Assembly (NCBI GenBank): GCA_019653755.1
Contig: BPCL01000001.1
Location: forward strand, 124,001-188,000
DNA: 64,000 bases
Source of the DNA: Woeseia sp.
Lineage (GTDB): Bacteria > Pseudomonadota > Gammaproteobacteria > Steroidobacterales > UBA11654
Direction: 5' to 3'
Positions 5,240-61,862 of this stretch are shown here, piece after piece (positions within the stretch are counted from its first letter, which is position 1; each line of letters begins with the position of its first letter). The translations under genes and the position numbers were made by a program. The notes under the pieces were generated by a model that did not search any database, was not told where the DNA came from, and worked only from the letters and a program-made list of their open reading frames with translations.

Positions 5240-6929
5240 TTTTTTGTCTTAATTTCATTAAAACTTCATCTTTTTCACCATCCAAAACTACCGATCCATT
5301 AGCTAAAACAATAATGCGATCAACCAGTTCTAACATAGACATTCGATGAGTTACCACTATGATTGTTTTAAACCCTCCCAAATTAAGATTTTCAAGAAGG
5401 TCTTTCTCAGAATTGATATCGAGTGATGCAGTGGGTTCGTCCAATAGCAGCACTTCAGGGTTTCCCGCTATTGCCCGAGCTAATGCAATGGACTGCATTT
5501 GCCCTCTTGATAAGGACTTACCTTTATCCGAGAGTATGTACTCTAAACCACCTGGAATGGTATTCAGGAAACTATTTAGGCCGCTCAGCTCTATTGCATT
5601 CTGGATTGCTTTGTCTTCTATCCAATTTCTCCCCATAACGATGTTTTCTTTAATCGATCCAGAGAACAGTTGGAAATCTTGAAGCACAACCGCTAATTTT
5701 TCTCTGAAAGTATCCTGATCAATTTCATCTATATTAAGATGATTGAAGCTTAAAGAGCCTTGTGTAGGCGTGTAAATTCCAGAAATAAGTTTTATTAAGG
5801 TCGTTTTTCCTGAGCCATTTTTACCCATAACGGGAATTTTTTCTCCCTCTTTGATTTGTGTTGTCAGTTGGTTGATTGAGGGAATAGATGAATTTAGATA
5901 GAAAAAGCTAAGATTTTTTATTTCAAGATTGCCCAATGTTTGGACTTTCATCCCTTCATTATTATTGCTTCGATCTGAGATTGTATTCATCAATAAATCA
6001 ATCTTTTTATATGCTGTCTTAGCATGATTCAATCTTCCAAAGAGGTTAGCTACTTGAGCTAAAGGGGAGAGGGCTCTTGAAGAGAGAAGAACCGCAGCGA
6101 CCATGGCACCCATAGAGACTTCTCCAGAATCTATCAAATAAGTTCCATAAAAAATAATCCCTACAAGACTAATAAGTTGTGCGCTTGACGCCGAGTTGGT
6201 TGCAAGTTGGGAGAGGACTTTAGATTTTCTTGATGAGCTTGATCCATCCTTTACGCTGTTTCTGTATCGATCGATGAATAATGAAGAGCTATTATTGGTC
6301 TGTATGGCATCCAAGCCTCCTAAACTTTCAACCAATAAACTGTATTTACTTTGGTTCATTTCAGAGACAGTCTTGCTGTGTTTCTCAATAAAAGGCTGAA
6401 CAGCTATACCAATGATTAAAATTATTGGAATGACTGATAAAGGGATAATTGCTAAAGGTCCTGCAATGAGATAAATGACCAAAACAAACAAGAATACAAA
6501 AGGCAAGTCAACCAATAATGCAATTGTTGCAGAAGCAAAAAATTGTTTGAGAGCATCGAATTCTTTGAAAGTGTTTGCAAGACTTCCCACCGAGTTATCA
6601 ATTGAACCAATTGGTGAGTGGAGAAGGCGATAATAAATCTCTTCCCCGACACCCAGATCTAAATCTTGTCCAGCTAGATCGATATACCATGATCTTAAGT
6701 TTTTTAAGATGAAATCAAATACAACAACTATCGCCATTCCGAAAGTGAGTGCAAACAGGGAAGAATAGGCAGCATTAGGTATAACTCTGTCATAGACCAC
6801 CATGATAAAGATAGAGCTAGCAACAGAAAGAAGGTTAACCATGGCCGAGGCCAGAAGAACCCTGGAATATAGATTCTTATTTTCGCTGAAGGCAGCTTTG
6901 AACCAATGATTAGTTTTTTGTTCACTCAT
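5232..6929 (-). CDS. type I secretion ABC transporter (HlyB/LapB-like), permease-ATPase fusion
   Basis: Walker A GKNGSGKTT, signature LSRGQMQSIALARA, Walker B VLLLDEPTASLD; N-terminal TM domain; overlaps hlyD-like ORF. Confidence 0.9.
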   Translation of the reverse strand: MSEQKTNHWFKAAFSENKNLYSRVLLASAMVNLLSVASSIFIMVVYDRVIPNAAYSSLFALTFGMAIVVVFDFILKNLRSWYIDLAGQDLDLGVGEEIYYRLLHSPIGSIDNSVGSLANTFKEFDALKQFFASATIALLVDLPFVFLFVLVIYLIAGPLAIIPLSVIPIILIIGIAVQPFIEKHSKTVSEMNQSKYSLLVESLGGLDAIQTNNSSSLFIDRYRNSVKDGSSSSRKSKVLSQLATNSASSAQLISLVGIIFYGTYLIDSGEVSMGAMVAAVLLSSRALSPLAQVANLFGRLNHAKTAYKKIDLLMNTISDRSNNNEGMKVQTLGNLEIKNLSFFYLNSSIPSINQLTTQIKEGEKIPVMGKNGSGKTTLIKLISGIYTPTQGSLSFNHLNIDEIDQDTFREKLAVVLQDFQLFSGSIKENIVMGRNWIEDKAIQNAIELSGLNSFLNTIPGGLEYILSDKGKSLSRGQMQSIALARAIAGNPEVLLLDEPTASLDINSEKDLLENLNLGGFKTIIVVTHRMSMLELVDRIIVLANGSVVLDGEKDEVLMKLRQKND

Positions 6930-6934
6930 CGTTT

Positions 6935-8282
6935 CTAGAATTGATTTACAGTATTTTCTTGTTCAAAATATTTGATGATTTTCCCCAAGAGAAACAGTTG
7001 TCTCAATTGTGAGGAATTAATTTCTTTTTTATTAATAATTAACAATTCAGCGGACTCAATATAGTCCCTTTCAGCTTGCAACAACTCTAATAGAGAAACA
7101 TTGGATGATTCAAATTGAAGACTTAATTTATTTTTGCTTTGCTCATATGCTTCAAACGCATTATTAAATATTGCTAATCTTTCGCTGCTGTTTTCCAACT
7201 CCTGCTAAGTTGGCTTCAGATTTTATTTTTAATTCTTTCAGAAGTATTTCTTTTTTTAGTGTAGAAGAATTTAATTGTTCCTCGGCCAGTCTAACCAGCG
7301 CTTTTTTCTTGCCCCCGGTATAAATATCTACATTAAAATTTACCCCTGCATAGAGATCATAATTTTGATCCCCTGTAAGATCATACCTATCCCCTCTAAG
7401 TTCTAGGTTAATCTTGGGTTTAAAGCCAGCCTTAGCTTTTTCCAATTCTCTTTCAGAGGCTTTGATTAGTTCATTGGCCTTCATGATAGAGTAGTTTTCT
7501 TCGATCGCATCCCTAACTTTACTGCTATCATTAATCAATTGCTCTGAATCGACCTTTAAAAATTTTAAACAGGGTTTAGTGTCTACAATTAATTGACTGA
7601 ATTTAGCCCTAGCGCTTTGAAGCTTAAGATCTATGGTCATTTTTTTTGCCTGCGCTTCTGCCAACCTAGCCTCTGCTCTCATCATTTCCGCTTGAGCTGC
7701 TCTTCCGCTCTCAACTCGCATTTTTATTCGTCCGACGATTTGTGAATGGCTATCTATTGAAATATCAATCAGATCAGAAATAATTTTATACGCAGCGGTG
7801 TCTTGACAGGCTATAGCCATATCCAGAGTAAGCTCAGAGACTTTTTGCTGATTATTGTAATAATCAGCTTGCAGTATATATTCTTGCTTGCTTATCTCTT
7901 CTTTAATAATCGGGTCAAATAAGGATTGTTGCATTATCAAGCTACCATCGGCTCTATGCTGATCTTTTGAGCTTTCCGTAAGTGCACTGAGTGGATTATT
8001 AAACTTTTGTTTAAGGCTGTTCCTAGAATTTCCCTGAAACTGTATCTGTGGCTTATTGGCTGATTGGGCTATATCCAAAGAGGCTTTACTTGATCCAACT
8101 ATTGCCAGAGATTCTAGGTATACAGGATGATCTTGAATAGAGGAAATTAGCGAATCGATAAAAACCTCTTGTTCTTGTTTGTTCATTTCAAAATCACTAA
8201 TCACAATGGATTGTGTAAGTGCAGTCTGCCCAATAAGCAAACATAGCAGCACTACAATTATTTCTTTTTTATTAAAAGTCAT
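6935..8282 (-). CDS. TolC-family outer membrane efflux protein, one frameshift near 7195
   Basis: Two overlapping ORFs; signal peptide; coiled-coil repeats; ESGRAAQAEMMRAEARLAEAQ and FNVDIYTGGKKKALVRLAEEQL typical of OMFs. Confidence 0.85.
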
Positions 8283-8371
8283 ACTCTTGTCTAATTTTAT
8301 ATAAAAAATTTAAAAAAGAACCTTAATAGTTCACTTTCTTCTCATCAATAATTACGCTATGATTTGCATCA

Positions 8372-11300
8372 ATGCCTCTTAGGAAAAATAAAACAAACCT
8401 AACTTTCCCAACTCTAGCAGCATTGACTCTCACCGCATGTGGCGGTGGCGGCGGCGGGGGAGCAATGGTTCAACCATCGCCCCCAACAAATAGAGCTCCT
8501 AACACGGGAGGCACTGTTACTAAGACAATGGACGAGGATTCCAGTGATGTTGGACTTGATATTTCTACACCCACCGATGCCGATGGAGACAGCCTCACAA
8601 TCACGGTAACCGGATTACCCACAGGGGGAACCCTGTACACAGCTGATGGCGACGAAGTTACAAATGGAATGACTTTATCCATTTCTCAGCTTACGGGACT
8701 GATTTTTACTCCAGATGCCAATCTGAATGACGATAACACTGACTTTGGCTCTTTTACATACAGCGTTTCTGATGGAAGTACATCCACCTCAGGAACAGTC
8801 AATATCTCCGTTACTCCCGTCAATGATGTACCAGAGTTTAATTCAGGTCCTGATCTTAATATTGAGGAAAATCGTACTGAGATTAATGGTCTTACTGCAA
8901 CAGATATCGATGGTGATACTCTCACTTATTCTATTAGTGGAGGCGAGGATCAGTCTTTCTTCACTATAGATCCAGACACTGGTGCGCTGGTATTTATAGA
9001 TCGTCCTGATTTTGAAAATGCACAAGATAGCGACGCAGATAATATTTATATCGTTGAAATTACGATTGATGATGGGAATGGAGGCTCTGCCACACAAACG
9101 TTTAATATTATCGTTACTGATGTAGTCACGGGCATAACCATTTCTAATACAAGTATTGATGAGAATATAGAGGGGGCTGTGGTTGGTGATCTAATAGCAG
9201 CAATTGATGATATTAATGCCACTCATGAGTACAGCTATTCTCTAACTGGGGAGGATGCCGATAAGTTTGAAGTAGTTGATGGCCAACTAAAACTTAAAGA
9301 CGGAGTCAGTGCTAACTATGAAGAAAAGAACATCTATAGTGTTTTAGTCACCGCAACCGATACCGGCGGTCTTTCTGTATCTCAAAATTTCTCAGTTACA
9401 ATTAACGATATCAATGAGGCACCTACTGATATCGGTGTATCGAGACTCTCATTAAAGGACAACAGCGATGCTGCTGTTGTTGGAACATTAAGCACCGTTG
9501 ATGAAGATGGAAACGAAAGTCATAGCTACACTGTAAATGACGATCGTTTCGAGGTAGTGGATGGGGTATTAAAGCTTAAATCAGGAATAACCATTGACAG
9601 TCTTACCGAGCCAAGAGTTACTGTCATTGTTACCACCACTGATAAGGGCGGTCTGACTTATCAAGAAGAATTCACTCTAAGTGTAGGAACAGTTCAAATA
9701 ACAGGGCTTCAATTTGAAGAAAATAAAGCCGGCGCGATTATCGGCGATCTATCCGTTATTGACTCTGATTTAAGTGGCGATATAACCTACACAATATCAG
9801 GAGAGGGTTCTGAGAATTTTGAGGTGGTCAATGGTCAATTAAAGTTAATTGACTCCTATAGTGCCAATTTTGAGGTGCTTAATAGCTATCAGATTACGAT
9901 CACTGCTTCTGATGGAACCAATGAAGAATCGACCACTTATCCATTTAACGTCGTTGATGTTAATGACGCTCCTACATCTGTTTCACTTTCCGCTTCAGCG
10001 ATTGATGAAAATCAGTTTGGGGGAATCGTTGGTTCCTTGACAACAGCAGATGAAGATTCAGGCGACACTCATACTTATACGATATCTGGAGATGGCTCAG
10101 AATATTTTGAAGTAGTTAATGGTCAATTAAAGTTGAAAGATAATTTTGCAGCAAATTATGAGGATAAAAATACTTACACTCTAACTTTGACCTCCACCGA
10201 TTCAGGAGGTTTATCAATTTCTACTGATATTACAGTAAACATTAACGATATAAATGATGCGCCAACCGGCATCGATATAACCGGCAGTCTATTTGTTAAT
10301 GACGGTGTAACTGGCGGTAGTGTTGGAGTGATATCAACTATTGATGAGGATGCAGTTGATAGTCACTCTTATAGCATATCAGGAGCTGACGCTTCTTCGT
10401 TTGAAATTGTTAATGGCACACTCAAGCTGAAAAATACTGCCACTGCTGTTAGCAGTATACAAAGTACATATGAAATCAGCATAACAACTACCGATAAGGG
10501 CGGGTTGAGTTGGTCTGAGGACTACACGATCGAAGTGAACGTTGCACCAACAGCAGTAACACTTGACAGTATGGATGTTGACGAGAGTTATATCGGCGCT
10601 TCTGTGGGCGCCTTTCTGGTTTTTGATCCAAATGCCAATGATGAGTTTACCTACGTTCTAAGTGGCAGTGATGCAGCAAGTTTTGAGGTTATCGATGGCG
10701 TGCTTAAGGTTAAGTCTGGGACTTGGCTCGATTATGAAACTAAGGCTACCTATACAGTAACGGTCACCGTTATTGACCAAGGTGGGTTCAGCCTCCAAAA
10801 AACATTTAATATTGATGTTAATGATGTTCATTATGGCAATCCTTATCACACCGAAGTGCAGAGCGATTTTGTTGCACCGATATCCGACGACCCGAGTGTT
10901 CAAGCACTTCAATGGACTTATGGAGGAGACGGCGAAGGTAGCCTCATTTTTGTTCATGACAATGACCCGAACACCCCATTGGTGATCACTTATAGTCTTA
11001 TCGATTCAAACTCTGTTTTGGGAGACAACTACGATGATGGCTACGATCAAGATGTTTATGATAATAGATCTGACTATTCTGCAGAATGGGAAGCTATGGT
11101 AGTCCAGGCTTTTGAGTATTGGGGTGAAGTCTCAGGGATTACATTTGTTAGAGTCGATGATAATGCCAATATGTGTGGCGATATTAGAGTAGGGCTTTCG
11201 ACTGGTGATTTTGGGGGAGCAGGGGGTTGGGCTAATGTGCCTTATTATTATCAAGGTGAAAACAACAGCACAGCCAATGATATTTGGATACGTCAACAGT

Positions 11301-12958
11301 ATGACCCTATCGTCTATGGCTCTGTCTATGGCCCGTTGATATTGATTCATGAGATTGGGCATGCGATTGGTCTTGCTCATACTCACGATAACGGTTATCG
11401 ATCTACAGCTGAAGAGAACACCAATATCTATTCTGTTATGTCGTATATCGGATGGGGTAATTTTAACAATGATGATTGGATCGATTTTGGCTATGAAGCT
11501 GGCGATTGGTTTCCTGCGTATCAACCAATGGTCAATGATATAGCAGCAATACAGCACCTTTATGGCATGAGACCCATGAGTAATCCTGGTCCGACTACCT
11601 ATACTTTTTCGGGACCAGTGTACACCACTATTTACGATACTCAGGGAATTGACACCATTGATTTAAGTGCCTACACAATCAATACCACATTGGATCTTAG
11701 ACCTGGTAGCGTCTCATACATTGGTACCAATGAATTGGATTTTGAGGTTCCTTATGGTAATCGAAGTTGGGAGTGGGATTGGCAAGACACAGGGTTTCCT
11801 CTCACAATTGAGAAAGGCACCATTATCGAGAAGGCTGTTTTAGGAAGTGGTGACGACATCATTTTTTGCAACAGTGCAAACAATAATATTACCTGCGGTT
11901 TCGGAAACGATGATACATATTTCATTGGGACCAATGATATTGTTTATGGTGGGAACGGTTACGATAATTTTTTTATAGATTCATTTGATTTTGGACTTAT
12001 TGATGGCGGAACTGGAACCAGTGTAGCTGGTGGCGAAGGCGATTCCCTATACTTTTTTGGAGTCTACGCCAATCAGACCATTGATCTTAGGAGTTTCACA
12101 GATTTTCATATAACGGGTATTGAGGACATTAATATCAATGATGGTAAAGCCACAATTCTCCAGATTTCTGAGCAAGCTTTAAGAGACCTTGAGGGAAGTT
12201 ATACCAGGGATATAGATGGCGATGGGATGCTCGAGATCGTTCATTACATTTACACCTATGACGATGCATCTATTGATGAAATACAAGTCAATCAAGAGGG
12301 TTGGACATTAGTGGAAGGTCTAGTGGTCGATGATGATAATGTCTATGAAGGTTACGACTATTATAAATCGAGTGATGGCACGATCTGGTTTGCTGTCAAT
12401 AGTGGTACCAGTGTGGTCGAGATATCTGCTTTAGGTGCAAAAAATCTTAATACTTATTCCTACGATGGCAGCACTCCTACAGCAGCTTATAACAAAGACA
12501 TTGGCGATGATGACACTGACTATAGTCAACCGAATCAGCCTAGAGTTGTCAACGATGATTATACTGAACATAAGCCTGTTGGACCGTGTGGATGTAAAAT
12601 GTGCAAGACCACCAATGAAATAGACGGCGAACAATCTAAAGAGGATTTTCCTATAGTCGACTTAGATCAATATGAGGGGCCTATCGTCTTTCCAGACATA
12701 ACTGATTATAAGATTCAAACTACTGTTGCATTAGATGCCACAGAGCTCTCTAATATTTTATTGGAAGAGCTTACCGAGGATACTGATCTTCTTTATTTTG
12801 ATCATCTGCCAGATAGCCCCGTTTCTCATAATTCGAGTCAAATTATATCTCATAATAATCTCCCTAAAGAACAATACGAGCTATTGCTTAATTATGAAGA
12901 AATCATTCACCTAGAAATTTTGCAAGAAGATCTGATTTATACTTCAGAACTTGGTTAA
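8372..12958 (+). CDS. giant predicted lipoprotein with cadherin-like repeats and an M10/serralysin-type zinc metalloprotease domain; putative T1SS substrate
   Basis: Lipobox-like LTAC followed by GGGGGGG; cadherin-like repeats with xNDxNDAPT linkers; HEIGHAIGLAH plus SVMSY Met-turn; degenerate GSGDD/GFGNDDTY/GGNGYDNFF RTX-like motifs; divergent from a T1SS operon. Confidence 0.85.
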   Translation: MPLRKNKTNLTFPTLAALTLTACGGGGGGGAMVQPSPPTNRAPNTGGTVTKTMDEDSSDVGLDISTPTDADGDSLTITVTGLPTGGTLYTADGDEVTNGMTLSISQLTGLIFTPDANLNDDNTDFGSFTYSVSDGSTSTSGTVNISVTPVNDVPEFNSGPDLNIEENRTEINGLTATDIDGDTLTYSISGGEDQSFFTIDPDTGALVFIDRPDFENAQDSDADNIYIVEITIDDGNGGSATQTFNIIVTDVVTGITISNTSIDENIEGAVVGDLIAAIDDINATHEYSYSLTGEDADKFEVVDGQLKLKDGVSANYEEKNIYSVLVTATDTGGLSVSQNFSVTINDINEAPTDIGVSRLSLKDNSDAAVVGTLSTVDEDGNESHSYTVNDDRFEVVDGVLKLKSGITIDSLTEPRVTVIVTTTDKGGLTYQEEFTLSVGTVQITGLQFEENKAGAIIGDLSVIDSDLSGDITYTISGEGSENFEVVNGQLKLIDSYSANFEVLNSYQITITASDGTNEESTTYPFNVVDVNDAPTSVSLSASAIDENQFGGIVGSLTTADEDSGDTHTYTISGDGSEYFEVVNGQLKLKDNFAANYEDKNTYTLTLTSTDSGGLSISTDITVNINDINDAPTGIDITGSLFVNDGVTGGSVGVISTIDEDAVDSHSYSISGADASSFEIVNGTLKLKNTATAVSSIQSTYEISITTTDKGGLSWSEDYTIEVNVAPTAVTLDSMDVDESYIGASVGAFLVFDPNANDEFTYVLSGSDAASFEVIDGVLKVKSGTWLDYETKATYTVTVTVIDQGGFSLQKTFNIDVNDVHYGNPYHTEVQSDFVAPISDDPSVQALQWTYGGDGEGSLIFVHDNDPNTPLVITYSLIDSNSVLGDNYDDGYDQDVYDNRSDYSAEWEAMVVQAFEYWGEVSGITFVRVDDNANMCGDIRVGLSTGDFGGAGGWANVPYYYQGENNSTANDIWIRQQYDPIVYGSVYGPLILIHEIGHAIGLAHTHDNGYRSTAEENTNIYSVMSYIGWGNFNNDDWIDFGYEAGDWFPAYQPMVNDIAAIQHLYGMRPMSNPGPTTYTFSGPVYTTIYDTQGIDTIDLSAYTINTTLDLRPGSVSYIGTNELDFEVPYGNRSWEWDWQDTGFPLTIEKGTIIEKAVLGSGDDIIFCNSANNNITCGFGNDDTYFIGTNDIVYGGNGYDNFFIDSFDFGLIDGGTGTSVAGGEGDSLYFFGVYANQTIDLRSFTDFHITGIEDININDGKATILQISEQALRDLEGSYTRDIDGDGMLEIVHYIYTYDDASIDEIQVNQEGWTLVEGLVVDDDNVYEGYDYYKSSDGTIWFAVNSGTSVVEISALGAKNLNTYSYDGSTPTAAYNKDIGDDDTDYSQPNQPRVVNDDYTEHKPVGPCGCKMCKTTNEIDGEQSKEDFPIVDLDQYEGPIVFPDITDYKIQTTVALDATELSNILLEELTEDTDLLYFDHLPDSPVSHNSSQIISHNNLPKEQYELLLNYEEIIHLEILQEDLIYTSELG
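9130..10827 (+). repeat. six tandem cadherin-like units of about 88-99 aa
   Basis: Recurring FEVVxGQLKLKD ... TDxGGLS ... INDINDAPT; boundaries near 9130, 9427, 9691, 9973, 10264, 10551. Confidence 0.8.
11348..11380 (+). other. zinc-binding metalloprotease motif HEIGHAIGLAH
   Basis: Direct translation of the in-frame codons; matches HExxHxxGxxH. Confidence 0.9.
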
Positions 12959-38666: not shown

Positions 38667-39789
38667 TTATGTATTTATCCTTGGAATTGCAGGGTATTGC
38701 CAGTTTTCAGGGTTATTTTTTCTAGTGACTGAAGGAATGACACAATACTTTCCATCTTCAATTAATTTGTTCCAAGCTGAGTAGTCAATTTGCCAGCCCT
38801 TATCTTTCATTTCATGCATTAAGTCCCAGTAGACTTTAATAACTGTGTCTTCGTGTTTGCCTACTATCTCTGACATTCCATCAGGACCGTATTTAGGTAC
38901 TTGGGCTTCTGCAATCACCTTATCCTCAAAGATATTCTTCAAGTTTCTTTTTAGAGCCATTTTATTCATCCATTTGTGTGTCATGAAATTCCTGAAGAAA
39001 TAGTATCTCATCATGGTTCTGGTTCGATCAATTGGTGTAGAGAACTCATAGAAACAATTGAATTTTCCCGAGCCAATAGCGCCAATCTCAACCTGACCTC
39101 TTAGAGTTTGCCCAGCAATAAAGTACTTAAGTATCGACTTTACCTTAGTGCCTTCTTCGCGAACATTGGACCATGCACCCTTACTGTATGTTGATTCTGT
39201 TTCTATAAAGGCAGTCATTCCATAATCAGTTTTTTCAACTGTATGTGGAGGAGGTTGGTACGGGTTTTCTTGATCCTCAAATCTAATGCCATGAACAATA
39301 GGTAAATGTACATAGTCTAGATTACTGAATTTTGCCAAATGAAAATTTGATTCGAAAATTACGTCATAAGGAATTACTGCGTATTGTGAATCGTCTAGTT
39401 CAGGAATATCCATAATAGGCTTAGCGCTTTCGGGGTCATCGCCTAAGAATGCCCAAATGAGTCCTTGTTTTTCTATAGTGGGATAGGCATCAACTTTTAC
39501 ACCTGGGGCAGCCGTCTGTGGGTCATCGTCACCAATTGAAGGAATCTTTGTGCATTGCCCATCACGATTAAATTGCCAACCATGAAAAGGGGGAAATAAT
39601 TTCTCCATTATCACTGATACTTCCATTAGATAGGCTGTCACCTCGATGAGGACAAGCATTGCTTAGGCAAGCAGGATTACCCTTATCGTCTCTGAAAAGA
39701 ACAAAGTCCGCACCCAGCATTTGGACATATAGAGGTTGGTCTTTTAGCTCTTCACTTCTTGCTGCAACATACCATACATTTGTATACAT
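38667..39789 (-). CDS. Rieske aromatic-ring-hydroxylating / O-demethylase-type oxygenase, one frameshift near 39590
   Basis: NVWYVAARSEEL, CLSNACPHRGDSLSNG, PFHGWQFNRDGQC, NLDYVHLPIVHG. Confidence 0.85.
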
Positions 39790-48236: not shown

Positions 48237-49630
48237 TTAAGAGTAATTAAAAATACGATGATACCTTTTAGCAAAGGACACCACTTTTAAGTCGTCGCCC
48301 TGCTTGCCAATTATTTGCATTCCCATTGGTAACCCATGTTTATTGAAGCCAATTGGGACTGACATTGTTGGCAAACCAAGAAGGCTTGCTAAGATAACTA
48401 CTTCCATCCACCGATGATAGGTATCCATACTATAGCCTGCTATTTGATCGGGGTATTCTAATGACTTATCAAATGGGAAAACTTGTGCAGAAGGAATTGC
48501 AAGAAAATCATATTTCATAAATAATTTCTCCACGACAATATTGCATTCATTCCTCTGATCAAGAGATGCCTCAATATCTTTGGATTTTAAGCCCCTACCC
48601 TTTTCGTATTCCCATCTAACTGGTAGACCTAATTCCTCGTTCATCTCTAATTTCATTTCTGTCAAATAATCAAAAATATTTTTTGCACGAAGCGTTGTCC
48701 AACTATCCCATAACATATTTGTATTAATGTCTGACACTAGACTTGAGACATGCATCTGAGTTTTATCTAACTCTTTTAACTTTTTTTCACAAAGATCCAT
48801 TATTCCTGCTTCAAATTTATATGACCCATTCATGTTTGAAAGCCATCCTATTTTGATTTCAGAAAAATCATGATCACTCTCTTTTCTAAACGAGAATTCA
48901 GATCTATGGAGAATGGGTCTAAGGGGTGTTTACCGGATACAGCATCTAGGAATAGAGCCATATCATCAGGGGTTCTTGTTAGGCAACCAGGTGTAGATAA
49001 CAGGGGAAATTGTTTATCTATTTTCATGATTCGGTATTCTGGAATTAAGCCTGGTGTGGGTCTAAAACCATAAAGATTTGAGTACGCGGCTGGATTTCTG
49101 CACGAACCCATCATGTCTGAACCGTCAGCAAAGGGAAGCAAAGAATCTCCCACTGCTGAAGCAGCTCCTCCACTTGAGCCACCAGCTGTTTTTGTGTGAT
49201 CAAAAATATTAGATGTGGGACCAAACAATTTATTTGTGGTGTGCGAACCTAGTCCTAATTCAGGTGTGTTCGTCTTTCCTATTATGATGGCTCCATGTTT
49301 TATCAACCGATCGACCATTATCGAGTTTTTTGATGGCAGGTTATTGTTATACTTTTTTAGACCATATGTGGTCGGTAGACCTTCTGCATCTGTAAGATCT
49401 TTAATTGCCATTGGCAGACCAAATAATAGTGATTTAGTATTTTCATTGCTTTGTTTTAAATGTTTAACCTCATCCCTGATCAGATCTTCATCTTTAAGCG
49501 AAACAATAGCGTTTAAGACTGGGTTCAGTTTTTTTATTCGATTAAGGTAAAATTCTGTAACTTCCTCAGCTTTTATTTTCTTTGAAAGAATGTTTGAAAC
49601 AATGTCTTGGACAGATAGACTTTCAAGCAT
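48237..49630 (-). CDS. amidase-signature family amidase, one frameshift near 48840
   Basis: GLPMAIKDLTDAEG, KTAGGSSGGAASAVGDSLLPFADGSDMMGSCRNPA, VPIGFNKHGLPMGMQIIG. Confidence 0.9.
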
Positions 49631-51684: not shown

Positions 51685-53304
51685 CTATTTTTTATCAATT
51701 AATAAATTTTTATATTCTTCTCTTAAGTCAAACTTGAGAAGTTTACCCGTTGCACCATGAGGGAGTTCTTTCAGAAAAATAATTTCATCAGGAAGCCACC
51801 ATTTCGCTACTTTTGAAGAAAGAAAATCAAGAATATTATCTTTGCCAATCTCATCACCTGAATTTGTTACCACAAACATAATTGGCCTTTCATCCCATTT
51901 CGGATGAGGAACACCGACTACACATGCTTCTGCTATTTCTGGATGACCAACAGCTGCATTTTCTAAATCTATTGAGCTAATCCATTCCCCACCGGTTTTA
52001 ATTACATCTTTAGCTCTATCGACAATAGTCATGTAACCGTCTTTATCTATACTTGATATATCGCCAGTATCGAACCATCCCTCTTCATCAACGGCATCTT
52101 CTTCAGCTTTAAAATACTTTTGCAAGATCCATGGACCTCTGACCATCAAATGCCCATAGGCTTCTCCATCGTTAGGTAAGTCATTACCATTATCATCTGT
52201 AATTTTAAGTTCCACACCAAATACAGGTCTTCCTTGTTTAAGTTGTATTGCGTATTTTTCGTCTTTGCTCATCGTCTCCATTTCTGCTGTGGGTAGGTTC
52301 GTGGTTCCTAATGGGCTCATTTCAGTCATTCCCCAGGCATGGATAACATTAACGTCATGAACTTCATCAAACTCTTTAAGCATAGCGAGAGATAAAGCGG
52401 ATCCTCCGATGATGGTGTTTTTAACTGAATCTAGGACTTTATTGTTTTCTCGGCAATAAGCCAAAAGTTGCATCCACACTGTGGGAACACCAAAGGTACT
52501 GTTCACACCCTCTTTATCAATAAGTTCATAGAGTGAATCACCCTCCATCCCCATTCCTGGCATTACCAGTTTATTCCCCGTCATCGGACCAAAGTATGGA
52601 ATACCCCAAGCTAAAACATGAAACATTGGGACCACCATTAAAATACAATCATCTTTATTAATTGTCAGTGCTGCATAAGCTGAGGTGGCATGATAAATGT
52701 TAGATTTATGTGAGTACAAAACCCCTTTTGGGTTTCCTGTTGTTCCCGAGGTATAACAGAGAGCACAAGCCGCATCGTCCTCAAGAGCCGGCCACTTATA
52801 ATCTTCATCACCATCTTTGATGTATTCTTCATATGAGATTGTATTTTCAAGGGTTGTTTCAGGTATCTCTGATTCATCGCAAAGAATGACATATTTTTCT
52901 ACAGTTTTAAGTTGATCTTTTAGCGCTTCAAGAATTGGTATGAAAGGCAGTTCACAGAAAATTATTTTATCCTCGGCATGGTTGATTATATAAACAGCCT
53001 GTTCGGGATGAAGTCTGAAGTTTAATGTGTGGGTAACTGCACCCATGCCAGAAATACCAAAATACATTTCAAGATGCCTAAAAGTATTAAGAGCCAATGT
53101 GGCAAGGACATCTCCTTTTTTGTATCCATCTTTCTCTAGGGCTGAGGCAAGTTTTCTAGCTCTTACACATACTTCATCATAATTTGTTCTATGAATCTCA
53201 CCAGAAATCATTCTGCTTACGATTTCAGTTGTTGGATGTAACTCTTTTGCATGCTCAATAATTGAGGCTACATTTGGTGTCCAACGTTGCATATCTCCTT
53301 TCAT
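51685..53304 (-). CDS. fatty-acyl-CoA synthetase (FadD/AlkK-like)
   Basis: LCYTSGTTGNPKGVLYSHKS, AWGMTEMSPLGT, GWFDTGDI, DRAKDVIKTGGEWIS. Confidence 0.92.
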   Translation of the reverse strand: MKGDMQRWTPNVASIIEHAKELHPTTEIVSRMISGEIHRTNYDEVCVRARKLASALEKDGYKKGDVLATLALNTFRHLEMYFGISGMGAVTHTLNFRLHPEQAVYIINHAEDKIIFCELPFIPILEALKDQLKTVEKYVILCDESEIPETTLENTISYEEYIKDGDEDYKWPALEDDAACALCYTSGTTGNPKGVLYSHKSNIYHATSAYAALTINKDDCILMVVPMFHVLAWGIPYFGPMTGNKLVMPGMGMEGDSLYELIDKEGVNSTFGVPTVWMQLLAYCRENNKVLDSVKNTIIGGSALSLAMLKEFDEVHDVNVIHAWGMTEMSPLGTTNLPTAEMETMSKDEKYAIQLKQGRPVFGVELKITDDNGNDLPNDGEAYGHLMVRGPWILQKYFKAEEDAVDEEGWFDTGDISSIDKDGYMTIVDRAKDVIKTGGEWISSIDLENAAVGHPEIAEACVVGVPHPKWDERPIMFVVTNSGDEIGKDNILDFLSSKVAKWWLPDEIIFLKELPHGATGKLLKFDLREEYKNLLIDKK

Positions 53305-53338
53305 AAAATTTCTCCAAATAACAATTTTATATTATTAA

Positions 53339-55412
53339 TTACTGAATTACAGGGTACTCAAGCTTGAATTCATTGATTGAATCCCCATCTTCTTGATCAA
53401 ATGTATTCGCATAAAGGTGACCAGCATAGACAGCATGAACAACTGCCCCTGGCGCATTAGAATCACCAATATTTTGAAGTGTTTTAATGCCTGATGCTTT
53501 TAAAGCTTCTTGGTTTGATTTAAGTGACTTATAAAGCGAATCGTTCTGTTTTCTATTACCGACGAGCACAAGTGAACCCCTGGTAATATCTTTTTGCTTA
53601 TTGCTCACCTCATGATTGATTCTCACTGATGATTCTTCTATCTCTATAATGCGATGATCAGTGATAGCTTTAATACCTTTTTCTAATAGTTTCAGCTTAA
53701 TTTCAGTGACCTCATTACTATTAAAACTCCATGGAGAAACTTTTTCAAAGGGCGTAATAATAGTTACTTCGTGACCTAAATCTTTTATAAATTCAGCCAA
53801 AAGGCCGCCCATATAATAATAATCAAAATCGAATATTATCACCGGTGATGTTAGCTCACAACCCTTAAGCACGTCCTCAGGAGTGAGAATGCTATTCGTC
53901 TTAGTTATGGCTATAGGCGCTGTTTTTTCATCCATGATCGAGGGTTGCCAAACCGAACCTGTAGCTGTTACCACATGATCGAATCCCAATTTCAAAACAT
54001 CATCTGGATTCAATTTATTTTCTAGGTATATATCAACATTATCCATTTGATTAATTTGACTCACTCGGTAATCAGTTACTCTTTTATATGGAGACATACC
54101 AGGAAGTATTGACTCTTTATTGATTCGTCCTCCTAGTTCTTTTTCTGAATCTGCAATAGCGACTGGATACCCTCTTCTAGCAAGCGATAAAGTTGCTTCT
54201 AGCCCTGCTGGACCTCCCCCAATAACCAGAACTGAATTATCAGAAGATTTGGGTTTTATTCTCTCTGGATGCCACCCTCTTCTCCATTCTTCACCCATCG
54301 ATGGATTTTGTGTGCAACGAACAGGTATACCTTGGTTGTAACATGAGGCACAGATATTACAGCCAATGCATTCTCTAATATCATCTTCTTTGCCTTCCAA
54401 TATTTTATTTGGAAGGAATGGATCAGCTATTGATGCTCTTGCTGAACCAACAAAATCAAGAATTCCTCTATTAATCTGACTAACCATGTTATCTGGCGAA
54501 GTAAACCACCCTACTCCTACAACAGGCTTAGAAGTCAGTTGTTTTACAAAACCGTTGTAAGGCTCCATATGACCTGGTTCTGAAAATCTACTGCTTGGAC
54601 ATTCTTTAGACCATTTTGATAATTTGATATCCCATAGATCAGGTAATTCACCATTTAACTCAAAGAATTCATGAGCTTCACTCTTACTTGATTCACTTTT
54701 AAAGCTTAATAACTCATCTGTTGAAATTCGAACAGCAATTGCAGCTTTATCACCTGCAACTGATTTCATCTCAGTTATCAATTCCCTCATTAATCTGGAA
54801 CGATTTTCTAGACTTCCTCCGTATTCATCCGATCGATTATTGAATGTGGGGTGAAGAAAATGATAGGGCAGAAAACCCATTCCTGCATAACAATATATAA
54901 TATAAAAAGCCAGCTTGGATCGCTCGCTTGGTTGCATCCAAATGCCATTGAATGAGATCTTTAATGTCTCTCTTGTCCATTACTTTTGGTCCTGTAAGAT
55001 GCATGTCCACAAGTTCACTTACCTTTTCTTGTATTCCAGATGGAGAGATTGGAGGCATTCGTGTATGTCTGTTAGCCGCATATGCTCCTCCGTGAAAGAA
55101 TTCAATACCAGCAAGTGCATCATGCTCATGCACTGCATCTACCATAGGGACATGAGAAGCAATATCTTTATCAGACCATAATCTTGCAAATGGAAGTGGT
55201 CTATCATCTGAGCTCGGATGAATAGAGCAATAACCTGTGTTAATGACACTCCAACCACCCTCCGCTTTAATTCCTCTTTGAGCAGCTCTTGTGTTAGGCA
55301 TGTCATTACCTGAACCCATAGCATGAGGAACTTGATAGAATCTATTTTTTGCTGTCTTTGGTCCTATCTTTATGGGATCAAACAAGACTTTGTATCTTGG
55401 GTTAACATTCAT
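53339..55412 (-). CDS. TMADH / dimethylglycine dehydrogenase (DgcA)-family FMN/[4Fe-4S]/FAD oxidoreductase, one frameshift near 54890
   Basis: LFDPIKIGPKTAKNRFYQVPHAMGSG; AEGGWSVINTGYCSIHPSSDD; NRSDEYGGSLENRSR; CIGCNICASCYNQGIPVRCTQNPSMGEEWRRGWHPE; GGGPAGLEATLSLA. Confidence 0.88.
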
Positions 55413-55447
55413 ATTAAAATTTTGTCTTTTTTAAGAAATCATTTCAA

Positions 55448-56713
55448 TTATTTAAACTTTATTTGCATGAAGGAAAAGACTCCCAATAGAGCAAAAAATA
55501 CCCCACTATTTAGAGCTATCACCCAGCCAAACTGATTTGCTAATATTGGGATTAATGGAGTTGCTAGTACTCCACCTAAATTTCCACCTGTATTAAGAAT
55601 TCCACCTGCAGCTTGAGGTTTTTTTGAAACAAAACCTATGGCTGACCAGAATGGCCCTTCTGTTAATTCAATAAAGCCATAACATAGAGATAAAGAAAGA
55701 ACTGCGAGATAGGGATTTTCGGTAATCGAGCCAAAGATTAAGAAGCCAGCAGATGGGACCAGACCAACGATAACAGGGATTCTATGCCCCCATATGACGC
55801 CATAGCTTTTTTGCAGCCTATCGCATAGGTATCCACCTAAAGTTGCACCTATCGCACCCATAAGAAATGGTAAACTTGCAAGAAAACCACCTTCCAAAAC
55901 ACTGAAACCTCTAATATTGACGAAATAAATAAAAATCCAAGAATAGAATATAAAAAAAACATAGTTCATTGACATATAGCCCAATGCAGCAAATAAAACA
56001 TTCTTATCAGCAAGCACTTCCTTAACCATTGACCAAGACATCTCATTATTGTTGAATTCAGACTCGCCTATCAAATCCAATTCCTTTTGATTGATATCAG
56101 GGTGTTCTCTGGGCCAGTTTTTTGAATATTTCCACCATATTATTGAGCCGATTAGACCCAATATTGAGATCATGAAAAATGTCGATTGCCAACCAAAATT
56201 CTCAGCCAAAAGAACAATGATAGGAGGAGTCGATGCTGACCCCAATGCAAGTGCTGTGGAGGTCATTCCATTGGGGAGTGCCCAAGACCCTGAAGGAAAC
56301 CATCTTGCTATTACTCCTCCTGCCATAGCAGGAAATAAAGGACCTTGAAATGCACCTAATAGGAATCGACAGATAAATAAAAGTGGAATCATCAAAGCTA
56401 CTGAGAAACCACCCATTACAATTAAACCAGATATTATTGTTATTAAAGTGCAACCCAATGTACAAAAAACTAGTGTGCTTTTAGGACCTATTTTCTCTGA
56501 GAGCAAACCTCCTGGAAATTGAAAGAGTGTGTAACCCCATAAAAAAGAGGAGAGAAGCCAACCTAATTCTATTTGTGTGATGCCGATATCATCCATCAAA
56601 TATTTACCGATTACTGAAAGATTACCCCTGAATACGTAAGCAATATATCCAAGCAAAAGGGTAATAAATAGAACTCTCCATCTAATATTTGTTGCTCTGA
56701 TTGAGTTTGTCAC
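55448..56713 (-). CDS. MFS transporter (anion:cation symporter-like)
   Basis: LLSSFLWGYTLFQFPGGLLSEKIGPK, RFLLGAFQGPLFPAMAGGVIARWFP. Confidence 0.88.
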   Translation of the reverse strand: MTNSIRATNIRWRVLFITLLLGYIAYVFRGNLSVIGKYLMDDIGITQIELGWLLSSFLWGYTLFQFPGGLLSEKIGPKSTLVFCTLGCTLITIISGLIVMGGFSVALMIPLLFICRFLLGAFQGPLFPAMAGGVIARWFPSGSWALPNGMTSTALALGSASTPPIIVLLAENFGWQSTFFMISILGLIGSIIWWKYSKNWPREHPDINQKELDLIGESEFNNNEMSWSMVKEVLADKNVLFAALGYMSMNYVFFIFYSWIFIYFVNIRGFSVLEGGFLASLPFLMGAIGATLGGYLCDRLQKSYGVIWGHRIPVIVGLVPSAGFLIFGSITENPYLAVLSLSLCYGFIELTEGPFWSAIGFVSKKPQAAGGILNTGGNLGGVLATPLIPILANQFGWVIALNSGVFFALLGVFSFMQIKFK

Positions 56714-57786
56714 AATTTGATGTCTAGCCTTTCTTGAATATACTTCCGAATATCTAGGCTCTCATCTTCCATTGGCGAATAGTAGCCATATTTGAAAGTA
56801 TTGGATTGCATTCCTTTTTGCACTCGTTCGCAAATATTCCAATCTTGTTTGTTGACCAAGTTCCAAAATTCAGAAGCGTCATCTGGATCAAAATCTGATT
56901 TAACTACCTCATCTGGGTGAAACAAAATACGACAGTCTATTCTTGTATAAGTTGGCGAAATTGGCTGAAGAATAAATGCAGCAACATGATCCATGGAAAG
57001 ACTCATCATTAGATTTGGGTAAAGCGCTTGACCGAAATGGTTGTTTTTCTCAGATTGATTAAGCCCCGGGAAGGGTTTTCTATTTGTTGTTCCTGAGAAT
57101 GTAAAAGTATTTGCACCAGGTCTATGAGGAATACCCTCATCCCAATCTAAACCGTTCCCGCCGTTCTCCTTGAATGCAGGAATAATACTAACCAACTCAG
57201 GATGAACCCCAGCACAGTGATAGCACTCATTATAGTTTTCAACGATCACTTTCCAGTTTGCTGAGACGTCATATTGATATGATCTAGAAGAAACTAATTC
57301 ACTTAAGGGAAAACGAATAAATTGATCACTTAGTTTTTTAATATATTTCTCAAAAGAAGATGGTTTTTCATCGAGATTAATGAATATGAAGCCGCCCCAT
57401 GCTTCGCTCTTTACTCTATTCAAATGAAACTTTTTATCTTTTGTATCTACGTCTAAATGAGGTGCTTTAAATAAGCTTCCATCAAAGTTATAGACCCATG
57501 AGTGATATGGACATCTGATATTTCTTTTCAAAGGACTAGATCTTTCATCCTCAAGAATTTGGCAACCTCTATGTTTGCAAAAATTATGAAAAACCCTAAT
57601 CTCATTATTTTTATCTTTGATAATAAATAGATTCTCATTCCCAATTGTAAAGATTTTATAACTACCAGTTGAATCAAGATCTTCTTCTCTGCCACAACAT
57701 ACCCAATCCGAGTAAAAGATATTATCTAATTCCTGATTATAGATCTCGTCACTGAAGTAGTATTTTTTATCTAGGCTTTTTTCCAT
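56710..57786 (-). CDS. Rieske oxygenase, choline/glycine-betaine monooxygenase (GbcA/CMO)-like
   Basis: CKHRGC-x15-CPYHSW Rieske ligands; VIVENYNECYHCAGVHPEL mononuclear iron site. Confidence 0.85.
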   Translation of the reverse strand: MEKSLDKKYYFSDEIYNQELDNIFYSDWVCCGREEDLDSTGSYKIFTIGNENLFIIKDKNNEIRVFHNFCKHRGCQILEDERSSPLKRNIRCPYHSWVYNFDGSLFKAPHLDVDTKDKKFHLNRVKSEAWGGFIFINLDEKPSSFEKYIKKLSDQFIRFPLSELVSSRSYQYDVSANWKVIVENYNECYHCAGVHPELVSIIPAFKENGGNGLDWDEGIPHRPGANTFTFSGTTNRKPFPGLNQSEKNNHFGQALYPNLMMSLSMDHVAAFILQPISPTYTRIDCRILFHPDEVVKSDFDPDDASEFWNLVNKQDWNICERVQKGMQSNTFKYGYYSPMEDESLDIRKYIQERLDIKL

Positions 57787-57791
57787 TGTGA

Positions 57792-58973
57792 TTAAAAAAC
57801 TCCATATCCTGCAGAATTCATTCGATAATTAATTCCTTTTTCTTGATCCTGCTCAAGTTCAACATATTTTTTAATTTCTGCTATCTTTGACTTCCTATCA
57901 AATTTGTCCATAGCCAGTCCCATTTTATGATTTGATTGTAGTAAGTGTGATATCTCACCTTGCATTTTCTTCTGATATATTTCTAGTACTTCCGCGACTC
58001 GTTGTTTATTAAAATCAGTGTATTCAGGTAAGAGTTTGACCAATTCATCTATGCATTTAATTGTAGTGTTCATTCCTTGGCTTCTTCCAGGGTGAAGGCC
58101 ATGACAAGCATCACCAATAAGAACAAGATTATCTTTTGTCCAGCGTTTGGCAATAATCATTGATGGTGGATAAATACCTGCTGAATACATCGGTAAGGAT
58201 TTGTATTCTGGGACTAATGAGCCTATAAAATTGGTGTAATCCTCATTACTCATTTTTTTCCATTCTTTAACCTCATTCCTGTCGATGGTTAGCCCAATTT
58301 TGCAGCCTCCTTTTGATCGAGGTATCATTGTGACTATACCTCTATCTGTAAGATAGGTTCTCAGGTTGTTTTCTGAATCTGCTTCATAGTCTTCAGAAAA
58401 AAGTACAGCCAAGGCTCTTTCATATCGAAATGTTTGTCTTTCTAATTCAAATTTTCGAGCAATGTTTGACGCAACACCATCAGCTCCAACAACTAACTTA
58501 GTTGCTATAGTAAGTTCAGTTTTGTCCTTCAATATTAATTGATACAAACTTTCATCATGATCTGTGGATACATGCTGACAATTGATAATAGGTCTATAAA
58601 GGCTAAAATTTTCATCCTTTGATGCGAATTTTAAAAACACTTCACTGATATCTTCATGGTTGATAAACATAAAGAAAGGCTGAGGAATATCTAGTTTTGA
58701 GACATTAGCATCCATTAAAAAATTGGCTGATTCATCAAACCAAAGTGAACCGGCTCTTTTTTTAGCGCCTGCATCAAAGAAATCATCCAGAACACTCCAT
58801 TGATTAAGAATCTCGCAGACAAAAGGCTGAATATGATCACCTCTTGCGGTATCTTGTGGTTTTTCTGATTTTTCAACAAGAACCACTTTATAACCTTTAT
58901 CGGTTAAGCAAGCTGCCATAGCAGAACCGGCAACTCCGCCTCCGATAATGAGTACATCTGTTTCAATTCTCAT
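57792..58973 (-). CDS. FAD-dependent monooxygenase (PHBH-like fold)
   Basis: DVLIIGGGVAGSAMAACLTDKGYKVVLVEK; VVGADGVASNIAR; VLIGDACHGLHPGRSQGMN. Confidence 0.9.
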   Translation of the reverse strand: MRIETDVLIIGGGVAGSAMAACLTDKGYKVVLVEKSEKPQDTARGDHIQPFVCEILNQWSVLDDFFDAGAKKRAGSLWFDESANFLMDANVSKLDIPQPFFMFINHEDISEVFLKFASKDENFSLYRPIINCQHVSTDHDESLYQLILKDKTELTIATKLVVGADGVASNIARKFELERQTFRYERALAVLFSEDYEADSENNLRTYLTDRGIVTMIPRSKGGCKIGLTIDRNEVKEWKKMSNEDYTNFIGSLVPEYKSLPMYSAGIYPPSMIIAKRWTKDNLVLIGDACHGLHPGRSQGMNTTIKCIDELVKLLPEYTDFNKQRVAEVLEIYQKKMQGEISHLLQSNHKMGLAMDKFDRKSKIAEIKKYVELEQDQEKGINYRMNSAGYGVF

Positions 58974-58993: not shown

Positions 58994-59698
58994 TTAAGTG
59001 ATTTCTAAGCTATCAAGCAAGTAGTCTGATTTTAAGTGATCCCATCTTATTTTTACAATGATGAAATCATCACTATAGGTCCAAATGTGGATTGGTGGCC
59101 AGTCATAACCCACGACATCGCTGTCCCAGCTCAATTGAAAATAGTTTGTTTTAAAGGTTCCTGCAGGGACAGACAATTCTTCGTTGCCATGAAAGCTTAA
59201 AAATTTTTCTGTCATCGTTATATTTGGACCTGTATTTCCATGAGGTGTCTTGGAAGTGGTCACACAGTTCTTAAAATGCTGTCTCTCTTCTTTATTATTC
59301 ATATCAAATACAGCGCAACCCCAGGCATCGTTTGCCACAGGGTGTGCACCAAATGCCATAGGCCAACTATCAACTTTTTGTTGTTGTGAGAATCGACCTG
59401 CATCTTTAGTTATAGCTTCGCATTCCACCATTTGATCTGAGAAGTTATACCAAGTTGTTCCTTGAAAGGCGCCACCAACTGAGAGCCTGACAAAAGCGTC
59501 TATGGGTAACCAATGCTTATCAACGGTGTACACAACATCTCTAAGGAGCTGATCCTCATCAATCTCGCATCTAGCACGCAGTGTCCTAAATCCATGGTTG
59601 TCTTTACTGATAGTGAAGTACTCTCGCCCTACTTCACCTCGATCATCATGACAATAAAGAACTTTCCCTGAAATATATTTAAACGGTTTGTCCGCCAT
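58994..59698 (-). CDS. conserved-looking hypothetical protein
   Basis: Intact 234-aa soluble ORF inside the minus-strand gene run; no recognised motif. Confidence 0.6.
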   Translation of the reverse strand: MADKPFKYISGKVLYCHDDRGEVGREYFTISKDNHGFRTLRARCEIDEDQLLRDVVYTVDKHWLPIDAFVRLSVGGAFQGTTWYNFSDQMVECEAITKDAGRFSQQQKVDSWPMAFGAHPVANDAWGCAVFDMNNKEERQHFKNCVTTSKTPHGNTGPNITMTEKFLSFHGNEELSVPAGTFKTNYFQLSWDSDVVGYDWPPIHIWTYSDDFIIVKIRWDHLKSDYLLDSLEIT

Positions 59699-60809: not shown

Positions 60810-61862
60810 TCATTTTTCTGATACCCCTAGTCGTTCTTGAAGTTTTGGACTGGTTGTTGTGTATTGAAGATGAACTTTTTTACCAGGCTCTATTATGGCT
60901 TTTGCAGCAAATGCAGCAAGCGCTGCCTCATGAAAACCACTGAGGATTAATTTTTTCTTTCCGGGGTAGTTAGAAATATCACCTATTGCAAAAATTCCCG
61001 GTAGATTAGTTTGAAATTTTTCCGTATCAACCTCTATAGATTTCTTATTAATTTCTAGATTCCATTCAGCAATAGGTCCAAGTTTTGGTGATAGCCCAAA
61101 ACAGACAAGCATGCTATCTGCAGCTATAACTTTTTCTTCTTTGTTTACTGATAGCGTTAATGTTTTTAAGTTTTCATTATCAACACTGTAGGATTTTAGA
61201 TTGCTTTTTTCGTAAAGATTAATTCTCCCTTCATTGACTAAAGCCTTCATTGTTTTGACCGAGGCAGCAACTCCTCTGTATTTATCTCTACGGTGAACCA
61301 AGGTTACAGTACCTCCAGAATCTATAAATTCCTTATCACTTGCAAAGTCATTAGCCCAATCAAGTGCTGAATCTCCGCCACCAAAAATAACAAGATTCTT
61401 ACCAAAAAAACCTTTCTTATTTTTAACTTTGTAATGTAGCCATTTGTCTTCAAAATCATCGATGTCTTTTAATTTGATTTTTCTAGCCTGAAATGAGCCT
61501 ACGCCCCCAGCTATAAAGATAGTTTTGGTGATAAATTGGTTGTTAGTACTAGTGGTAACAAAATATTCTTCATTTTTACTCTCGACTGAAACAACTTCTT
61601 CTCCCAAATATATCTCAGGGTTAAATGGTTCAATTTGTTCCATCAAATTATCAACCAATTCTTGAGCTGAACAAACTGGAATGCCAGGAATATCATAGAT
61701 CGGTTTATCAGGATAAAGTTCAGAGCATTGGCCGCCAATCTTCTCCATACTATCAATGATCACAGAATCAATGCCGAGCAATCCTAGTTCAAAGATTTGG
61801 AATATGCCGCAAGGGCCAGCTCCCACTATCAAGGCATCAATATGTTTGGTTTCTTGGCTCAT
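60810..61862 (-). CDS. thioredoxin-reductase-like ferredoxin/flavodoxin-NADP+ reductase
   Basis: LIVGAGPCGIFQIFELGLLG; GGQCSELYPDKPIYDIPG; VIFGGGDSALDWA; lacks TrxR CxxC; C-term TTTSPKLQERLGV. Confidence 0.88.
   Translation of the reverse strand: MSQETKHIDALIVGAGPCGIFQIFELGLLGIDSVIIDSMEKIGGQCSELYPDKPIYDIPGIPVCSAQELVDNLMEQIEPFNPEIYLGEEVVSVESKNEEYFVTTSTNNQFITKTIFIAGGVGSFQARKIKLKDIDDFEDKWLHYKVKNKKGFFGKNLVIFGGGDSALDWANDFASDKEFIDSGGTVTLVHRRDKYRGVAASVKTMKALVNEGRINLYEKSNLKSYSVDNENLKTLTLSVNKEEKVIAADSMLVCFGLSPKLGPIAEWNLEINKKSIEVDTEKFQTNLPGIFAIGDISNYPGKKKLILSGFHEAALAAFAAKAIIEPGKKVHLQYTTTSPKLQERLGVSEK

Follow-up and report, generated by a model that had tools for sequence, protein, structure and literature searches.

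A gene trio for the probable demethylation of a betaine-type compound in a small ocean bacterium

A candidate betaine-demethylation module

We analyzed a stretch of 64,000 nucleotides of the Woeseia sp. assembly GCA_019653755.1 (contig BPCL01000001.1, positions 124,001 to 188,000, hereafter the window, whose coordinates are used throughout). It carries a run of genes that includes a Rieske oxygenase, a major facilitator superfamily (MFS) transporter, and a flavoenzyme related to trimethylamine dehydrogenase (TMADH) and histamine dehydrogenase (HADH). As judged from the sequence, the transporter and the two oxidizing enzymes probably demethylate a betaine-like compound, by a route that would not be the known glycine betaine pathway. 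On balance, we favor a module that catabolizes a quaternary ammonium carboxylate, i.e., a betaine-type compound that is probably not glycine betaine, in which an N-demethylation by the Rieske protein would be followed by a dehydrogenation by the flavoenzyme. We tentatively propose, further, that this might be an undescribed betaine pathway for a marine osmolyte, uniting a clade of group V Rieske oxygenases with Tyr at position 203 (CntA numbering) and a new subfamily of TMADH/HADH enzymes with Ala30 and Met172 (TMADH numbering) that would demethylate without covalently bound flavin mononucleotide (FMN) or a catalytic His. A preliminary description of the same DNA had suggested a module for the catabolism of N-methyl compounds, which the active-site residues, the conservation of the trio in distant lineages, and the neighbors of each enzyme now support.

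In the proposed mechanism, the MFS protein would import the quaternary ammonium carboxylate and the Rieske oxygenase would bind the N-methylated cation beside its Fe(II). The oxygenase would then use O2 and two electrons, supplied by an unlinked ferredoxin/reductase, to release one N-methyl group oxidatively as formaldehyde, which leaves a tertiary (N,N-dimethyl) amine. The flavoenzyme would dehydrogenate an N-methyl group of this amine to formaldehyde and a secondary amine, and pass the electrons via its 4Fe-4S cluster to the electron transfer flavoprotein (ETF). The leftover methyl groups would be removed by folate-linked enzymes resembling DMGDH and SARDH, encoded elsewhere in the genome.

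The genome is a gammaproteobacterial draft of 1.5 Mb, 88% complete, and the closest named relatives are known from single-cell or metagenome assemblies (labelled uncultured gamma proteobacterium). The gene run lies where it had been described, entirely on the minus strand. The trio comprises the alpha subunit of the Rieske oxygenase (56710-57786, 358 aa, with the Pfam domains Rieske and Ring_hydroxyl_A), the putative MFS importer (55448-56713), whose gene shares 4 bases with the end of the Rieske gene, and the flavoenzyme, encoded in two parts (54837-55412 and 53339-54937). The importer is closest to organic-anion/galactonate-type (ACS) models, below their cut-offs. The motifs previously reported for the flavoenzyme and for the Rieske site, KNRFYQVPHAMGSG, AEGGW, CIGCNIC...CTQN and ENYNECYHCAGVHPEL, are all found in the proteins of the run.

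The Rieske oxygenase

The Rieske protein has the [2Fe-2S] ligands C70, H72, C92 and H95, the mononuclear iron ligands H190, H195 and D315, the bridging E187, and the Cys pair C188/C191 beside the mononuclear iron, all as in group V, together with Y185. Group V Rieske oxygenases are defined by their quaternary ammonium substrates (PMC7948474), and the Cys pair beside the mononuclear iron has been described for them (PMC10952381). The CntA residues Y203/E205/C206/C209 correspond to Y185/E187/C188/C191 of the window protein, which by its predicted active site is of the group V, quaternary ammonium type. Within this group, an aromatic residue at 203 characterizes group Va (CntA acting on carnitine, choline monooxygenase, and OxyBAC acting on benzalkonium), whereas group Vb has Asn there and comprises the N-demethylases of glycine betaine (GbcA) and stachydrine (Stc2) (PMC7948474). 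With Tyr185 in place of the Asn of group Vb, the window protein sits, by this marker, on the Va side. It is not a close CntA counterpart: at the carnitine site, it has Cys285 for Tyr295 and His for Phe258, and no CntB-type reductase was found in the genome.

The protein had been described as similar to GbcA and to choline monooxygenase. It is not GbcA: among the NCBIfam models, that of GbcA (NF058607) scores highest, yet it reaches only 199.4 bits against a curated cut-off of 670 bits, and position 203 is Tyr instead of Asn. GbcA was also searched for in 56 genomes of the class with a stringent E-value; there was no match, a result of little weight because the controls gave none either. The solved structures closest by sequence are a homologue of Stc2 (3n0q), the stachydrine demethylase Stc2 (3vca), and CntA (6y8j). 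In the phylogenetic tree, the 81 sequences group on a branch of their own that includes neither Stc2 nor CntA, although confidence in this separation is reduced by the length of the branches. The motif YNECYHC is identical in 80 of 80 relatives, a figure that is partly circular because ENYNECYH was one of the six patterns used to retrieve them.

The flavoenzyme

The identities to HADH and TMADH are those of the intact form of a close relative (L035). Over its full length, this protein is 44% identical to HADH and 39% to TMADH, and it has the architecture of their family: an FMN barrel of the old yellow enzyme type, four 4Fe-4S cysteines, and C-terminal nucleotide-binding domains. The part encoded at 54837-55412 covers the barrel up to the frameshift discussed below, with VPHA in place of VPHC and Y60, while 53339-54937 encodes, in another frame, the remaining barrel with Y169, M172, W264 and Y355, the cluster cysteines, and the nucleotide-binding domains. 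The alignment confirms the earlier observation that Cys30, which binds FMN in TMADH, is replaced by Ala. It also places Met at His172 and Glu at Asp267, whereas no change is seen at Tyr169, at Arg222 or at the four cluster cysteines. The enzyme thus lacks both the 6-S-Cys30 FMN and the complete Tyr169/His172/Asp267 triad of TMADH proper. Position 30 is also Ala in PDB entry 1djq, which we take to be the C30A mutant of TMADH. The pocket is aromatic in the window genus (Y60, F74, F105, W264, Y355), whereas HADH has Q60, E74, A105, W264 and D355 (PMC10180351). The residues of HADH proper (Cys30, Gln60, Glu74, His172, Asp355) are accordingly Ala, Tyr, Phe, Met and Tyr. Outside the genus, the aligned members of the clade have Ser264, Trp355, and Ala60 or Tyr60 (one has Val60); the pocket thus differs from lineage to lineage.

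Ala30 and Met172 are nearly constant among the copies in Rieske loci in which these positions are covered (20/21 and 21/22, respectively), the exception being a second, HADH-like copy in one locus (L080). In the tree, the proteins with Ala30 and Met172 group together with support (100/98), to the exclusion of HADH, TMADH and DgcA. The preliminary description had assigned the enzyme to a TMADH/DgcA family, of which the first half holds. To assess the second, the DgcA reference was picked by synteny with a DUF3483 (DgcB) neighbor, and the flavoenzyme is only 25% identical to it. Together with the lack of a DUF3483 match in the genome, this sets it apart from DgcAB systems, and membership of DgcA was ruled out by the comparison.

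Conservation of the trio and neighbors of its members

We examined 80 Rieske loci with flanks of at most 10 kb. In 29 of them, no more than 1.3 kb separates the Rieske gene from the flavoenzyme gene, and 22 of these also have the MFS gene. The two enzyme genes are at most 150 bp apart in all linked loci except those of the window genus and L080. Among the carriers of the pair are Halieaceae/Luminiphilus, strain HTCC2080, Steroidobacteraceae, Porticoccaceae and Rhizobiales. The Rieske oxygenase, the flavoenzyme and the MFS transporter are thus a core trio conserved well beyond the window lineage. In the family of the window, 6 of 11 genomes have both the Rieske gene (at least 85% identity) and the flavoenzyme, and neither was found in the other 5. 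The preliminary description had named, as the outcome that would speak against a module, two enzymes from unrelated clades in a run conserved in no relative; we found the run conserved and the clades not unrelated.

Other neighbors of the Rieske gene were also recorded. In HTCC2080, a BCCT transporter gene (betaine/carnitine/choline; 447 vs 408 bits) adjoins the trio, and in another locus (L056) the Rieske gene stands with a SoxB/ThiO-like oxidase, a sodium symporter and a BCCT-family gene. A methyltryptophan-oxidase-like gene, of which a representative scores above the NCBIfam cut-off (294 vs 257), is present in 18 other Rieske loci and never together with the flavoenzyme. As a separate observation, a family of CrtO/CrtI-like FAD amine oxidoreductases (L078, L272 and others) recurs both beside the Rieske gene (18/80 loci) and beside Met172 flavoenzymes.

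For the reverse test, we collected matches to the flavoenzyme from 296 genomes of the order and 399 of the phylum and read their surroundings. Among the Met172 types outside the genus (n=22), a Rieske gene lies within 3 kb in 5 and an MttB-like methyltransferase gene within 150 bp in 4. For the His172 types (n=42), the corresponding numbers are 0 with a Rieske gene and 2 with an adjacent MttB-like gene. The difference gives Fisher p-values of 0.003 for Rieske and 0.0006 for either Rieske or MttB-like, which are indicative only, since the genomes are not independent samples. Of the closest flavoenzymes outside the genus (53-54% identity), L258, L259 and L265 are beside genes of DAO+GCV_T architecture, i.e., of the dimethylglycine/sarcosine dehydrogenase kind. 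Two of these closest relatives (L262 and L265) are beside soxBA, with a soxB score of 616 against a cut-off of 529 in L265. In Fuscovulum, a member of the same clade adjoins an annotated trimethylamine methyltransferase family protein. By their predicted families, these recurring neighbors (MttB-like, DAO+GCV_T, soxBA) are all enzymes of N-methyl amines.

Electron partners and methyl metabolism in the genome

The partners GbcB and DgcB had been reported as absent from the run. We found neither a DgcB-type DUF3483 protein nor a GbcB/CntB-type FAD_binding_6 reductase anywhere in the 88%-complete genome. Since FAD_binding_6 is unmatched genome-wide, the missing GbcB is not particular to the run, and we dropped it as a peculiarity of these genes. 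Nor is FAD_binding_6 strictly absent across the genus: a single weak match (a frame of about 290-325 aa) is present in each of 9 of the 11 genomes of the family. An obvious alternative electron source for the Rieske oxygenase would be the TrxR-type ferredoxin-NADP reductase of the run itself (60810-61862, minus strand), whose best PDB match is 5ygq. On the side of the flavoenzyme, the genome encodes ETF-QO, and this is the usual acceptor chain of TMADH-type enzymes.

No gamma-glutamylmethylamide synthetase (GMAS) above the cut-off was found in the genome, so the standard methylamine route is not evident. Elsewhere, one locus (L299, contig C3, 86000-105500) has two MttB-type methyltransferases, one of them split, two DAO+GCV_T dehydrogenases, a distant methylenetetrahydrofolate-reductase-like gene, and a malonyl-CoA decarboxylase. 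Its MttB-type and DAO+GCV_T genes suggest that folate-linked demethylation occurs elsewhere in the organism.

The frameshift in the flavoenzyme gene

The preliminary description treated the flavoenzyme as one gene and overlooked a frameshift near 54,909. One extra base at about this position (within 54905-54911, minus strand) places the two open reading frames in different frames. It is absent at the aligned site of the closest relatives (L035-L037), where the frame is single and intact, and the genomes behind L035-L038 have open flavoenzyme frames of 701, 701, 701 and 696 aa. The differences between the window and L035 at codon positions 1/2/3 are 19/8/75 before the break and 69/43/246 after it, a pattern that points to purifying selection on both sides. 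This third-position bias, together with the presence of other split genes in the window, leads us to read the frameshift as a sequencing or assembly error or a very recent lesion. An old pseudogene was ruled out by the same bias and by the intact frames of the relatives.

Frame breaks are frequent in the assembly: an amidase gene (48237-49630) is split into two open reading frames and a prolyl-oligopeptidase-like gene (484-2657) into several. In addition, over the MFS and flavoenzyme genes (about 53300-56800) the window is only 76-81% identical to L035, compared with mostly 87-96% from tmk to the Rieske gene and in the ligase gene. In this same interval L035 is instead 84-90% identical to L036. 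Judging from this pattern, the two genes have been exchanged between strains as one recombination block.

Weighing the alternatives

Several observations weigh against the N-demethylation module. Tyr203 marks group Va, whereas the characterized N-demethylases Stc2 and GbcA have Asn (PMC7948474), and this favors C-N cleavage. Many of the Rieske relatives (51 of 80, many of them on short contigs) have no flavoenzyme within the tested distance, and no dedicated reductase or ferredoxin is linked. The copy of the flavoenzyme in the window is frameshifted. Finally, with Met at the position of the catalytic His172 and a pocket that is Y60/W264/Y355 in the genus and A or Y60/S264/W355 elsewhere, the substrate may differ or the activity may be altered. 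The main rival is a route like that of CntA, where the Rieske enzyme would hydroxylate the carbon next to the quaternary nitrogen, C-N cleavage would free trimethylamine, and the flavoenzyme would be a trimethylamine dehydrogenase producing dimethylamine and formaldehyde. The Tyr shared with group Va (PMC7948474), the aromatic residues at all three positions of the TMADH aromatic bowl (Y60, W264, Y355), and the Ala30 of 1djq fit this route. We nevertheless consider it unlikely, given the replacement of the carnitine-site residues Y295 and F258 by Cys and His, the lack of a GMAS above the cut-off, the Met at position 172, and the association of the flavoenzyme clade, in other genomes, with demethylases of N-methyl amino acids. 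We prefer N-demethylation because this clade accompanies either producers (MttB, Rieske) or consumers (DMGDH, SoxBA) of N-methylated amino acids.

Less probable still is a cluster for aromatic compounds or alkaloids, in which the Rieske enzyme and the PHBH-like monooxygenase of the run would attack a ring and the flavoenzyme would act on an amine side chain, as in the oxidation of 6-hydroxypseudooxynicotine. The window genus does have a PF01494 monooxygenase, an amidase and acyl-CoA ligases in the run, and Pno of nicotine degradation is a relative in the same family (PMC5500553). However, the monooxygenase is outside the conserved core, the Rieske protein bears the quaternary ammonium signature of group V, and the BCCT, MttB and sarcosine-oxidase neighbors point to betaines. 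We give even less credit to the known glycine betaine pathway (GbcA and DgcA) with its missing partners encoded elsewhere. GbcA is the top model for the Rieske protein and the flavoenzyme belongs to the superfamily of DgcA, but the score is far below the cut-off (199 against 670 bits), the identity to the DgcB-linked DgcA is 25%, DUF3483 was not found in the genome, and position 203 is Tyr, not Asn. It is most improbable that there is no module, i.e., that the neighbors are functionally unrelated or the flavoenzyme is decaying. The frameshift and the separate occurrence of the two enzymes in some genomes would fit such an account, against which stand the repeated linkage in Halieaceae, Steroidobacteraceae, Porticoccaceae and other lineages, the purifying selection before and after the break, and the intact flavoenzyme in the closest relatives.

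Accessory and other genes of the window

The genes between tmk (63.4 kb) and the acyl-CoA ligases, both ends included, are separated by short gaps and share the minus strand, in the order tmk, holB, TrxR-type ferredoxin-NADP reductase, FabH-like, 234-aa protein, PF01494 FAD monooxygenase, Rieske, MFS, flavoenzyme, ligase, short-chain dehydrogenase/reductase (SDR), Fe-dependent alcohol dehydrogenase (Fe-ADH), and amidase. The preliminary description had counted the class A FAD monooxygenase (57792-58973, minus strand) and the 234-aa protein (58994-59698, minus strand) among the members of the module. Both are present beside the trio, yet only the Rieske, flavoenzyme and MFS genes hold as its core: the monooxygenase adjoins the Rieske gene in the loci of the genus only, and the 234-aa protein comes from a large paralogous family that occurs in many contexts. 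The latter protein has no Pfam or NCBIfam match. Among 147 genomes of the order, 53 carry its family, which is multi-copy. The AlphaFold model predicts an open beta-barrel (pLDDT 91), with distant best PDB matches to DUF1849, PA1994, VioE and LolA-like folds. Homologues of this protein also sit in plasmid gene clusters of sphingomonads.

Other genes are worth recording. The acyl-CoA ligase at 51685-53304 is near the model of the 3-(methylthio)propionyl-CoA ligase of dimethylsulfoniopropionate (DMSP) demethylation (728 vs a cut-off of 822) and adjoins the flavoenzyme in the window and in L035 but not in L036-L038. A second Rieske-type oxygenase (38667-39659), whose N-terminus is apparently missing, lies between MFS and SDR genes. 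At 4313-12958, as judged by eye, a cadherin-like repeat protein of 1528 aa with a metalloprotease-like HEIGHA motif adjoins ABC transporter, HlyD-like and TolC-like genes, an arrangement suggestive of type I secretion with the repeat protein as cargo.

Significance and comparison with known systems

In the ocean, betaines and methylated amines serve as major currencies of carbon and nitrogen, and many genes for their degradation are unassigned. The chemistry and the superfamilies described here are known. Neither the curated models nor the literature we found contain a counterpart to the partnership of the two enzymes, to the Ala30/Met172 subfamily, or to the Tyr203 Rieske clade; as the literature was covered in part, a prior description is possible. 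Likewise, no homarine, trigonelline or stachydrine operon of such gene content was found in the literature searched, again with partial coverage. The repeated partnership of two sharply defined clades (YNECYHC Rieske and Ala30/Met172 flavoenzyme) makes the question of the substrate directly testable, including in HTCC2080. The change of His172 to Met also probes how far the accepted mechanism of TMADH and HADH requires this His.

Among the Rieske enzymes, Stc2 (group Vb) shares with the window protein the bridging Glu, the Cys pair, the iron ligands and the quaternary ammonium chemistry, and is among the best PDB matches, but has Asn at 203 and lies on a separate branch. CntA (group Va) has Tyr203, Glu205 and Cys206/Cys209 in common with it, and differs in the carnitine-site residues Tyr295 and Phe258 and in having a CntB-type reductase, which we did not find in the window genome. 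GbcA is the best-scoring NCBIfam model but remains distant, and no GbcB-type reductase was found in that genome. For the flavoenzyme, HADH is the best sequence match, from a separate clade whose Cys30, Gln60, Glu74, His172 and Asp355 have no equivalents here. TMADH shares the FMN barrel, the 4Fe-4S cysteines, Tyr60, Trp264, an aromatic residue at 355, Tyr169 and Arg222, and differs at Cys30, His172 and Asp267 (Ala, Met and Glu in the window). DgcA/DgcB differs in identity, in its active-site residues and in its DgcB subunit, but would occupy a similar place in the pathway, acting on the tertiary amine that follows a Rieske demethylation.

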